Source of the DNA: Rhodospirillaceae bacterium
Lineage (GTDB): Bacteria > Pseudomonadota > Alphaproteobacteria > GCA-2731375
Reading direction: 5' to 3'
DNA length: 64,000 bases
Assembly: GCA_018660265.1 (NCBI GenBank)
Contig: JABJKS010000121.1
Coordinates: 62,001 to 126,000 of the forward strand
Of this stretch, positions 6,074 through 9,375 are shown piece by piece. Each line of letters begins with the position of its first letter. Positions within the stretch are counted from its first letter, which is position 1. Under the pieces are notes generated by a model, which saw nothing but the letters and a program-made list of their open reading frames with translations, was not told the origin of the DNA and searched no databases. A program made the translations under genes and the position numbers.

Positions 6074-7003
6074 ATGCGTTTGGGCGTGGATCTGGGCGGT
6101 ACGAAGATCGAGGCGTTGATCCTCGGCGATGACGGTACAGAGGTTGCCCGCCAACGGATGCCCACACCCCAAGGCGATTACGACGGCATCGTCGCTGCCA
6201 TCAGGGATTTGCTGGCGGCTGTTTTATCGGGTGTGGGGCAGGAACAGGCCGCAGATAGGATCCCCGTGGGGATTGCCATACCCGGTGCCGTATCCCCCCT
6301 GACCGGTCTGGTCAAAAACGCAAACTCCACCTGCCTGATCGGCAAACCCTTTGATAAAGACCTCGCAGAGGCCCTGGACCGACCTGTTCGTCTGGCCAAC
6401 GATGCCAATTGCTTTGCCCTGTCGGAAGCCAGTGATGGCGCGGCGCGGGATGCCAACTCTGTTTTCGGCGTCATCATCGGCACCGGCACGGGCGCCGGCA
6501 TTGTTCTGGGCGGACGCCTGCATGAGGGAGCGAACCTGATTGCCGGGGAATGGGGGCACGCCCCCCTGCCCTGGGCTGATGATGACGAACGCCCTGGGCC
6601 GGATTGTTATTGTGGCCGGCAGGGCTGTATCGAAACATTTTTATCGGGCCCTGGGTTAAGCCGCAGCTATAAAATGGCCGCTGGTGGGGACCTGAAAGCC
6701 CATGAAGTTGCCGAATTGGCCGCAACCGGCGATGCACAGGCCGAAGATTGCATGCGCCGCTATGAACGGCGCCTGGCGAAATCTCTGGGCATGGTCATCT
6801 CAATCCTGGATCCGGAGGTCATCGTGATGGGCGGCGGTGTTTCCAACATCGACCGGCTATATACCAACGTGCCAAAACTGTGGGGGGAGTTTGCCTTTTC
6901 CGATCAACTGACCACGAAATTGCTTCGGGCCGAACATGGGGATTCCTCCGGCGTGCGGGGTGCTGCCCGGCTGTGGCCGGTGCTAGAGACGGGCGGTGCC
7001 TAG
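6074..7003 (+). CDS. ROK-family sugar kinase (fructokinase-like)
   Basis: ATP-dependent hexose kinase of the ROK family, 309 residues. It opens with the phosphate-binding motif GVDLGGTKIEALI and has a second ATP loop, GVIIGTGTGAGIVLGG. The ROK zinc site CYCGRQGCIETF (CxCGxxGC) follows a His in GEWGHAPLP. This combination fits the Mak/NagK group (fructose, mannose or N-acetylglucosamine), and the exact sugar is not determinable. It is tightly packed between the HAD-like gene and dinB and is presumably co-transcribed from 5115 onward. Confidence 0.88.
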   Translation: MRLGVDLGGTKIEALILGDDGTEVARQRMPTPQGDYDGIVAAIRDLLAAVLSGVGQEQAADRIPVGIAIPGAVSPLTGLVKNANSTCLIGKPFDKDLAEALDRPVRLANDANCFALSEASDGAARDANSVFGVIIGTGTGAGIVLGGRLHEGANLIAGEWGHAPLPWADDDERPGPDCYCGRQGCIETFLSGPGLSRSYKMAAGGDLKAHEVAELAATGDAQAEDCMRRYERRLAKSLGMVISILDPEVIVMGGGVSNIDRLYTNVPKLWGEFAFSDQLTTKLLRAEHGDSSGVRGAARLWPVLETGGA

Positions 7004-7016
7004 GCGTGCCCGCGCC

Positions 7017-8270
7017 ATGACCGGGCTCTGCCGCGATTGCCTTCAAACGGCATCTGACGCCGGTGCACGCTGCGGCAAATGCGGCTCTCCCCGCTTGCTG
7101 CGCCATTCCGAGTTACTACAGTTGAGCATTGCGCATCTGGACTGCGATGCCTTTTACGCCAGCGTTGAAAAACGTGATGATCCGTCCCTGGCTGACAAAC
7201 CGGTGATCGTCGGCGGCGGCCATCGGGGTGTCGTCAGCGCGGCTTGTTATATCGCACGTACCTTTGGTGTGCGGTCCGCCATGCCCATGTTCAAGGCGCT
7301 TAAGGCCTGCCCCCATGCCACGGTAATCAAACCGGACATGGCGAAATATACCGTCGTGGGCCGCCAGATCAGGGCCATCATGAAAGACTACACCCCGTTG
7401 GTGGAGCCCTTATCCCTGGACGAGGCTTTCATGGATTTGACCGGAACGGAACGCCTGCACGGCCAGTCACCCGCCGCCACAGCCGCCGCCATCGTCAACC
7501 GCATCGCGCGGGAGGCGGGCGTCAATACCTCCATCGGGCTGTCTTATAACAAATCCCTGGCCAAGGTAGCGTCAGATCTGGACAAGCCCCGGGGCTTTGC
7601 CGTCATTGGCCGGGCCGAAGCAGTGGAATTTTTGGCCGGGCAACCTGTATCGATCATCTGGGGTGCGGGCAAGGCCTTGCAAACCAAACTGGCCAAGGCG
7701 GGCATTACAACGATTGCCCAGCTGCAGAGCATGGAAGAAAATGATCTGATGGCGCAATACGGTGCCATGGGCCGGCGCATGGCGCAGTTCGTGCGTGGCG
7801 AAGATCCACGCAGTATTTCCGCCAATCGGCCGACCAAAAGCATCTCGTCGGAAACAACGTTCCATCACGATATCTCGGATGGCGAAGAATTAAAGAAAAT
7901 CCTCTGGCGACAGGCGGACCGCGTGGCCCGGCGCATGAAAGCAGCGGAGCTGGCAGGCAGCACCGTGAACTTGAAATTGCGCCGCGCCGATTTCCGCATT
8001 CTAAGCCGCAGCCGTCGACTGCCCGATCCAACGCAATTGGCCGATACCATCTATCATCATTGCGTGGAGCTGCTGGCAGGGGAAGTCAACGGCACCGCCT
8101 ACCGCCTGCTTGGCGTCGGTCTTAGCGGCCTGGTTGATGGCGGGGAGGCCGATCCCCTAAGCCTGGCCGATCCCGAGGGCGGGCGCAGGGCGGATGCCGA
8201 GCGCGCCCTGGACAAAGTCCGTGAACGCTTCGGCACAGAAGCCATCGGCAAGGGCCGGGGTTTGCGCTGA
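7017..8270 (+). CDS. dinB: DNA polymerase IV with N-terminal zinc-ribbon-like extension
   Basis: Y-family translesion polymerase. The catalytic core begins at IAHLDCDAFYASVEKRDD, and the second acidic motif is SLDEAFMDLTG. The helix-hairpin-helix and little-finger regions follow, for about 417 residues in all. Before the core there are about 38 extra residues containing CRDC and CGKC, a possible zinc ribbon that many alphaproteobacterial DinB proteins share. I chose the ATG at 7017; the in-frame ATG at 6996 would overlap the kinase gene by 8 bp. I saw no clear LexA box nearby, and any promoter would lie inside or upstream of the kinase gene. Confidence 0.94.
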   Translation: MTGLCRDCLQTASDAGARCGKCGSPRLLRHSELLQLSIAHLDCDAFYASVEKRDDPSLADKPVIVGGGHRGVVSAACYIARTFGVRSAMPMFKALKACPHATVIKPDMAKYTVVGRQIRAIMKDYTPLVEPLSLDEAFMDLTGTERLHGQSPAATAAAIVNRIAREAGVNTSIGLSYNKSLAKVASDLDKPRGFAVIGRAEAVEFLAGQPVSIIWGAGKALQTKLAKAGITTIAQLQSMEENDLMAQYGAMGRRMAQFVRGEDPRSISANRPTKSISSETTFHHDISDGEELKKILWRQADRVARRMKAAELAGSTVNLKLRRADFRILSRSRRLPDPTQLADTIYHHCVELLAGEVNGTAYRLLGVGLSGLVDGGEADPLSLADPEGGRRADAERALDKVRERFGTEAIGKGRGLR

Positions 8271-8345
8271 GGCTGGCTTATGCCGCGTCAACGGAGGCGA
8301 TCAACCTTCGCAGACTCATTCAGATCGGTGCCAAAACCTGGACGC

Positions 8346-8424
8346 CCTATTATGGGGACACAATACTTATATCCGGTTTACTGAGTTCAAGGGTTGGATA
8401 TAAGTATTGTGTCCCCATAATAGG
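8346..8424. repeat. long perfect inverted repeat (REP/MITE-like hairpin)
   Basis: Arms at 8346-8374 and 8396-8424 are perfect 29-base inverted copies around a 21-base loop. The outer part of the left arm reads CCTATTATGGGGACACAATA. It lies between the convergent dinB and EipB-like genes and ends flush against the latter's stop codon (8425). It could stop transcription from both sides. The right end GTCCCCATAAT recurs in the hairpin at 39893-39924, which suggests a dispersed element family rather than a simple terminator. Confidence 0.85.
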
Positions 8425-9252
8425 CTACTCACAGCTGGGCTGGTCCAGATATTCCAATTCCACCAAACGTCCCTTCAAACCGAACTCGGGATAATCCAAT
8501 GTCAGGCCGTCGGTGACGCCGTCACCGTAAAGCGTGTAGCCGATTTCGAATTCCGGGACGCCGCCACGATTGGGTTGGTCCTGGCGGCTGTAATAGGCCA
8601 TGCGGATGGGCCAGCGGGGTAAGGTTTTGGCCAGGAGTTTGTGGTGACCGGCGGCATCCGGGGCGAGCTTGTCGCCGATGAAGATGGAGACAAGGTAATA
8701 GCCCGCTTCGTGGCTGCCATCGAACAGGGGGGTTTCGAAACCGCGGCTGCCCTTGATCGCGTGGGCCAGGACTTTGCGGGAGAAGACGGCCGGAAAAGCG
8801 GTGCCTTTGGGCAGTTCCAGATGCAATGCCTTTGGCTTGTCCCAGGTGGCGTTTCCGGCACCGCCCGGTCCCAGTTCGGCGCGGCCCTGTTCCTGCTCCA
8901 CCGACTTACCGTCGATGGTGGAGGTGAGGTTAAAGCGGATGATATCGCCATCCCGGCTTTCCCAGTGGGAGGCTTGCAGATCGTTAACGAAATCCAGGCC
9001 GCTGCTGCCTGAAAACCGAAGGATGAAGCCTTGGTTGAGGATGAAGCCGCTGCAATCCTCAATATATTCAGCCACCATGCGGCCTTTGACACCCAAAATG
9101 CCGGCGCTTTCCCGGTCCTTGTTCAGGTGCAGATCGTAAATGGCCCGCGCCGGGCGCAAGCTGGATGTCTGGGCAAAGACAACGCTGCTACTGAACAGAA
9201 AGACAGATAGCAAAAGAAAAGAAGCCGCGAACCGGCCGACCGATCTGATCAT
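8425..9252 (-). CDS. EipB-like periplasmic cell-envelope protein (DUF1849)
   Basis: Secreted beta-rich protein of the DUF1849 family, whose Brucella member EipB is a periplasmic spiral-shaped protein needed for envelope integrity. The best start is the ATG at 9250-9252, which gives a clean signal peptide (MIRSVGRFAASFLLLSVFLF, cleavage after VFA). Longer upstream starts would bury it. Family hallmarks include RAIYDLHL, the segment DCSGFILNQ with a Cys, and a second Cys at the C-terminus (DQPSCE), compatible with the disulfide known in EipB. It is a single gene on the minus strand, convergent with dinB. Confidence 0.87.
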   Translation of the reverse strand: MIRSVGRFAASFLLLSVFLFSSSVVFAQTSSLRPARAIYDLHLNKDRESAGILGVKGRMVAEYIEDCSGFILNQGFILRFSGSSGLDFVNDLQASHWESRDGDIIRFNLTSTIDGKSVEQEQGRAELGPGGAGNATWDKPKALHLELPKGTAFPAVFSRKVLAHAIKGSRGFETPLFDGSHEAGYYLVSIFIGDKLAPDAAGHHKLLAKTLPRWPIRMAYYSRQDQPNRGGVPEFEIGYTLYGDGVTDGLTLDYPEFGLKGRLVELEYLDQPSCE

Positions 9253-9375
9253 ATTGGTTACATTCCCCACACCGCCCAACGCCTGATGTGGCCACAATAT
9301 AACATACATCCAAAATGTTGACCCCTGTTGATCAGTTGCTACATTGATCACCCTCACAATTCAGGAGACGCAACC

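Follow-up and report, generated by a model that had tools for sequence, protein, structure and literature searches.

Between two convergent genes of an alphaproteobacterium lies a perfect inverted repeat, and the question is what kind of element it is and how its two arms come to match. The window, by which we mean the whole stretch of 64,000 nucleotides that was analysed, is part of contig C47 in an assembly of 5.55 Mb and 121 contigs. An initial annotation had described arms of 29 bp around a 21-base loop, and these were found as described, with 29 of 29 positions complementary at the same coordinates (Table 1). When arms of at least 18 nt and at most 200 nt apart were searched for in the 64-kb window, seven inverted repeats were obtained. 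The present one is the best among them; the other six are 72–79% complementary.

Table 1 Features at the inverted repeat, in window positions
Feature	Positions	Strand	Remarks
Left arm, one TIR unit	8346–8374	+	Outer arm 8346–8353 (8 nt), core GGGGACACAATACTTA 8354–8369, inner arm to 8374
Spacer (loop), 21 nt	8375–8395		Sequence varies from copy to copy
Right arm, perfect reverse complement of the left arm	8396–8424	−	Minus-strand core 8401–8416
dinB-type translesion polymerase, left neighbour	6996–8270	+	Pfam IMS and IMS_C; context only
EipB-like gene, right neighbour	8425–9357	−	Stop codon 8425–8427 abuts the right arm; context only

Folded as single-stranded DNA, a 95-nt region containing the repeat reaches −29.7 kcal/mol, compared with a mean of −7.7 (s.d. 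2.0) for shuffled sequences (z = −10.9), and none of 200 shuffles folds as well. The remark in the initial annotation that neither strand has a T-run after the stem holds on direct reading of the window sequence, and the repeat was rejected as an intrinsic terminator, for which a stem and a T-run are expected together. Rfam gave two microRNA models far under their gathering scores (36.3 against 100 bits and 21.3 against 75 bits), which for a hairpin of this length we attribute to chance, rejecting a microRNA identity. A 91-base query had no match in plasmid and phage collections.

Copies were counted in the own genome with the 16-mer ATGGGGACACAATACT. With up to two mismatches allowed, it has 14 matches, while a reversed control has 0. 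The copies are seven dimers of the core GGGGACACAATACTTA, some of them imperfect, and one degenerate copy on C1. The dimers lie on C7, C13, C47 (the window copy), C113 and C118, and two are on C78. Of the three Y1_Tnp genes found in this genome, the one on C78 has the window-type repeat on both sides in inverted orientation, since it is bracketed by the two dimers of that contig, whose starts lie 738 bp from each other. With multiple copies and a Y1 gene that carries the same repeat, the genome therefore does not hold a single copy without any related element, the outcome that the initial annotation had set against its own reading.

The C78 gene is an open frame of 222 amino acids with the motifs NHVH (HUH) and YVELNP (catalytic Tyr). 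Its only Pfam match at E ≤ 0.001 is Y1_Tnp, over residues 14–121 and with 54 bits at a cut-off of 23; for the C-terminal HTH-like domain of TnpAY1 subclass 2.1, discussed below, Pfam gave no match at that threshold. A sequence search of the PDB at the same threshold also returned a single match, E. coli TnpAREP (4er8). Against the NCBIfam model of the REP-associated tyrosine transposase (NF047646, cut-off 80), the three genes of this genome score 77.7, 74.1 and 78 bits, all of them just below the cut-off; the C78 protein is the one with 77.7. An insertion sequence of the IS200/IS605 kind was rejected, the transposase scoring 21.2 bits against a model cut-off of 55. The two paralogues (L016 on C26 and L017 on C64) are TIRYT-like and have flanking repeats of the GGTGACAG type, of which there are 15 matches in the genome. 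Incidentally, at five other transposase loci (L335, L337, L338, L341 and L342) the 3′ repeat begins at the stop codon of the transposase (TAAGTATTGTGTCCCC or similar), so that the repeat appears to supply that stop.

Di Nocera et al. (2013, PMC3733652) gave RAYT-like proteins of this sort the name TIRYT and called the loci TIRtrons. We consider it very probable, from sequence comparison, that the window repeat is a non-autonomous, hairpin-forming mobile element, namely an inverted dimer of the terminal inverted repeat (TIR) of a TIRtron. TIRYT, of a class of HUH/tyrosine single-strand nucleases, would recognise the folded repeat and, acting in trans, would copy or move the dimer to sites between genes, often immediately past stop codons. 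The match between arms would be kept either through recognition, for which the stem has to be paired, or through copying of each arm from the other. Both the function of the hairpin and the movement in trans are inferred; the evidence on mobilisation by TIRYT is indirect and consists of an empty site and a dimer copied as a unit, described below.

From one species to another, repeat types track the transposases. In a comparison of 11 genomes of the genus, the own genome included, GGGGACACAATAC has 33 matches in G010, 12 in the own genome and 0–3 in the other nine; the count spanned 61 genomes altogether, six of which had a match. Transposases related to that of C78 are 77% identical in G001 and 72% in G009, and both are flanked by GGYGACGTARTA. 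This repeat has 49 matches in G001, 20 in G009 and 0–3 per genome in the other nine (reversed control 0–6). Beside the single transposase match of G008 the repeat type is GGTGACAGTKYA, which has 46 matches in G008, 15 in the own genome (where two paralogues are of this type) and 0–10 in the other nine (control 0–2). In five genomes of the genus, the repeat present in high number is also the repeat found beside that genome's own transposase.

On the other hand, there are counter-examples. G003 has seven matches of the GGTGACAG type and no transposase match, and G007 has ten such matches with two full-length transposase matches that, on inspection, lack a repeat of this type. G025, from another family and 77% complete, has nine matches of GGGGACACAATAC and no transposase match.

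When repeat type is mapped on a tree with 38 labelled transposases, 8 changes suffice, and all of 1000 shuffles need at least 15, although such shuffles do not remove relatedness. The tree holds an additional four sequences without a repeat; labels were given by hand, some of them one-sided, and support is below 80 at 17 of the 39 inner branches. Left out were short rows (L071, L073, L346 and L347, for example), L328, whose gene is already represented by L051, and L063, L349 and L352, which are distant and have a one-sided motif each.

The family extends beyond the genus. A scan for exact dimers gave at least 113 stretches, 80 of them given as loci, and these 80 loci are from 33 assemblies. 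Titles of dimer-bearing metagenome-assembled genomes (MAGs) among the matches listed name Omnitrophota, Elusimicrobia, Clostridia, Alpha-, Gamma- and Deltaproteobacteria, Desulfofustis, Myxococcales, Actinomycetes and others, and contamination of MAGs may be behind some of these phylum labels. One MAG with dimers, of about 1.7 Mb (L229, L262), is titled Bordetella parapertussis, which is probably a misassignment.

Among the matches listed, the core is present in all 33 dimer-bearing assemblies and a relative of the transposase in 27, compared with 18 of 61 in a kinship sample (Fisher p about 1e-6, for samples that differ in make-up and share G010). In 15 of the 33, again among the matches listed, the relative has an adjacent repeat of the GGGGACAC type; a sixteenth, G407, where a distantly related transposase has a variant of the repeat on one side, was left out of these. 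Evidence against the link also comes from the six dimer-bearing assemblies with no transposase match, which include G410 with 26 core matches and G415 with 21. In G398, which has 27 core matches, the sole transposase match is flanked by a GGGGACAG repeat.

Did these copies move? The initial annotation had offered recent arrival as one reason for the perfection of the arms, and this is supported for the copy on C113 but not for the window copy. At the C113 locus G006 has an empty site, both flanking genes being joined there across a short spacer in which the element is missing; the flanks are 81% identical in DNA on the right and 69% on the left, and the boundary is approximate. The window locus has no clean empty site, as G006 aligns up to the stop of the EipB-like gene and then continues into another neighbourhood. 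For the C118 copy, both flanks occur together at one place in none of the genomes compared. Incidentally, G006 itself has one degenerate, element-like match (G006:C280:7037-7093, 74% identical) and no TIRYT match; this is perhaps a remnant.

An Omnitrophica MAG has two dimers 1.9 kb apart, which are identical at 64 of 65 positions over core and spacer. Their flanks match at 17 and 19 of 60 positions, that is, they are unrelated, and therefore the dimer was copied as a unit. In the own genome, the spacers of the window copy and the C13 copy align with a score that was reached by 14 of 500 forward shuffles and 0 of 500 reversed ones; most of the remaining pairs are not above shuffles.

The other reason offered for the perfect arms was active maintenance. 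Outside the core, bases vary from one copy to the next but tend to match within any one copy, although not in all genomes. Pairing was tested with at most one element per locus, using five of the seven dimers of the own genome (the C78 pair excluded), 15 elements from 16 loci in G010, 18 from 20 in G008, 13 from 15 in G001 and 5 from 5 in G009. At the outer six positions, 89 of 90 are paired in G010 when shuffles give a mean of 69.2 (reached by 0 of 5000), 106 of 108 in G008 against 97.4 (7 of 5000) and 29 of 30 in the own genome against 23.4 (77 of 5000). There is no excess at these positions in G001 (64 of 78 against 65.1) or in G009 (20 of 30 against 20.8). In the inner arms, the values are 140 of 144 against 110.5 for G008 (0 of 5000), 88 of 104 against 70.1 for G001 (1 of 5000) and 115 of 120 against 108.2 for G010 (38 of 5000), and neither the own genome nor G009 has an excess.

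The same tendency was seen across assemblies. The dimer scan listed 82 elements, of which four were dropped for being repeated or for lying too close to the end of a locus, leaving 78 from 32 assemblies among the matches listed; seven of the 78 are from an assembly that matches G010. As this set was picked by the exact, symmetrical 16-nt core, only positions outside the core are informative. With shuffles kept within assemblies, 61 of these elements from 15 assemblies have 368 of 488 positions paired, compared with a mean of 327.2, and 0 of 5000 shuffles reach that. Pairing inside copies thus supports active maintenance for some of the genomes and not for all.

Within-copy matching could also arise as a by-product of mutation. 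In quasi-palindromes, hairpin-templated correction can occur during replication, and such correction would yield matching at variable bases without any selection for pairing. We regard this as a possible but less probable account. It bears on the perfection of the arms alone and is compatible with the TIRtron explanation; dispersal and the link with a transposase are left unexplained by it. Outer pairing is wholly absent in 20 of 99 elements, and any such correction would therefore have to be incomplete.

The position of the copies relative to genes bears on another alternative, in which the repeat arose in situ as a long bidirectional terminator, or as a stabiliser of mRNA 3′ ends, for the convergent pair. 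In G010, 12 of the 16 dimers lie between convergent genes, four between tandem ones and none between divergent ones. Five of the seven dimers of the own genome were scored, and two are convergent, two tandem and one overlaps a called gene end; gene calls for both genomes were from a simple caller of our own. For the other assemblies, 12 of the 82 elements were too near locus ends to be scored and 12 were inside a called ORF (by a crude caller). The remaining 58 intergenic copies, among the matches listed, are divided into 19 convergent, 34 tandem and 5 divergent, compared with 93, 294 and 95 among 482 neighbour pairs as background. The convergent excess has a p-value of 0.016 and the divergent deficit one of 0.024.

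This bias is what a terminator would give, but it also fits selection against insertion into promoters; either promoter avoidance or a role at transcript ends is consistent with it. A scan for terminators over 8200–8600 found 0 sites, which also favours the terminator, although the scan was restricted to loops of 3–8 and therefore could not score the window stem with its 21-nt loop. An origin in situ is nevertheless improbable, given the identical core at unrelated loci, in unrelated bacteria and beside a transposase gene, the empty site for the C113 copy, and the missing T-run. The window repeat, as a mobile element, may at the same time end transcripts from both directions, those of the dinB-type and the EipB-like gene.

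The initial annotation had placed the repeat with REP/MITE elements moved by a REP-associated transposase. A mobile family tied to a gene of the RAYT class was indeed found, but the family is of the TIR/TIRYT kind and not REP. In TIRtrons, part of the repeats share GGGGWSAS and form moderately abundant dispersed families, many of them dimeric (PMC3733652). The core here starts with GGGGACAC in both arms, which agrees with GGGGWSAS, and there are also a Y1 RAYT-like gene between inverted repeats and dispersed copies, many of them dimers, as in the part of that paper we draw on. The GGGGACACAATACTTA family, the fit to transposase phylogeny, the empty site and the arm covariation are absent from that part of its text, and the repeats of its Figure 9 stand outside this comparison. 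Likewise, a text search of the literature gave neither 12-letter core string among the matches listed, and the titles were unrelated.

In a survey of TnpAREP-like proteins (Quentin et al. 2018, PMC6006769; statements here are from parts of it), subclass 2.1 is the largest subclass and holds 20 of the 26 TIRYT examples, as well as 291 of the 292 sequences of Bertels group 1. Its authors suggest that subclass 2.1 is probably the same as TIRYT. The C78 protein has the motifs NHVH, WQ and Y--LNP, in agreement with Table 1 of that paper for TnpAY1 subclass 2.1, and its length of 222 aa compares with a median of 238. That survey found no REP-like sequences for subclass 2.1, whereas dispersed repeats of the flanking type are present here.

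Likeness to MITEs lies in a short non-coding element having inverted repeats in common with a coding one; on the other hand, the partner here is a Y1 HUH protein, and a target duplication was not established. The REPIN/REP systems of RAYT groups 2–3 likewise have short inverted dimers that are dispersed and mostly intergenic, with matching repeats at a Y1 gene, but a classical REPIN, in which a RAYT of group 2 or 3 moves a pair of GTAG-tagged REPs, is very improbable, because GT[AG]G within 16 nt outside the core occurs in 10 of 198 arms compared with 47 of 639 control stretches, and single arms of the window copy remain unfolded as single-stranded DNA (−0.1 and 0.0 kcal/mol). In place of a GTAG foot and self-folding arms, the stem forms from arm to arm. 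With neither a GTAG/GTGG foot nor self-folding arms, and with the GGGGWSAS match, the repeat is therefore assigned to TIR/TIRYT rather than REP/RAYT. The window repeat is a TIRYT-associated TIR dimer, of a known kind and with relatives in other bacteria.

More tentatively, and with a good chance of being wrong, group 1 RAYTs (TIRYTs) of several phyla may drive populations of arm-to-arm hairpins that resemble those of REPINs, in which the arms would be rewritten at each copying so as to match one another, their symmetry would be a product of transposition, and the hairpin would be the single-stranded substrate. If so, group 1 RAYTs, which have no REP-like partners in the part of the PMC6006769 survey used here, would gain such populations. 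A dispersed hairpin repeat family at subclass 2.1-like genes would offer a testable substrate for that group, and would allow a comparison of REPIN-like dynamics across two dissimilar types of repeat.

Some minor observations concern dimer geometry and neighbouring repeats. Dimer lengths in G008 (L159–L178) cluster at 44, 63, 73–75, 85 and 94–95 bp with spacers that look unrelated; by inspection, the steps are roughly 10, close to helical, with 49 as an exception, and lengths in other assemblies differ. Very long outer arms at L227, L281 and L276 resemble, by eye, adjacent nested repeats and were not taken as longer elements. At L013:834-950 (G000:C113) there is an unrelated repeat of about 115 bp with the complementary ends TAGAGCAATT...AATTGCTCTA. 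It has no copy in the window (blastn, E 1e-3), and dozens of copies, about 80–96% identical, occur across the genomes of the genus.
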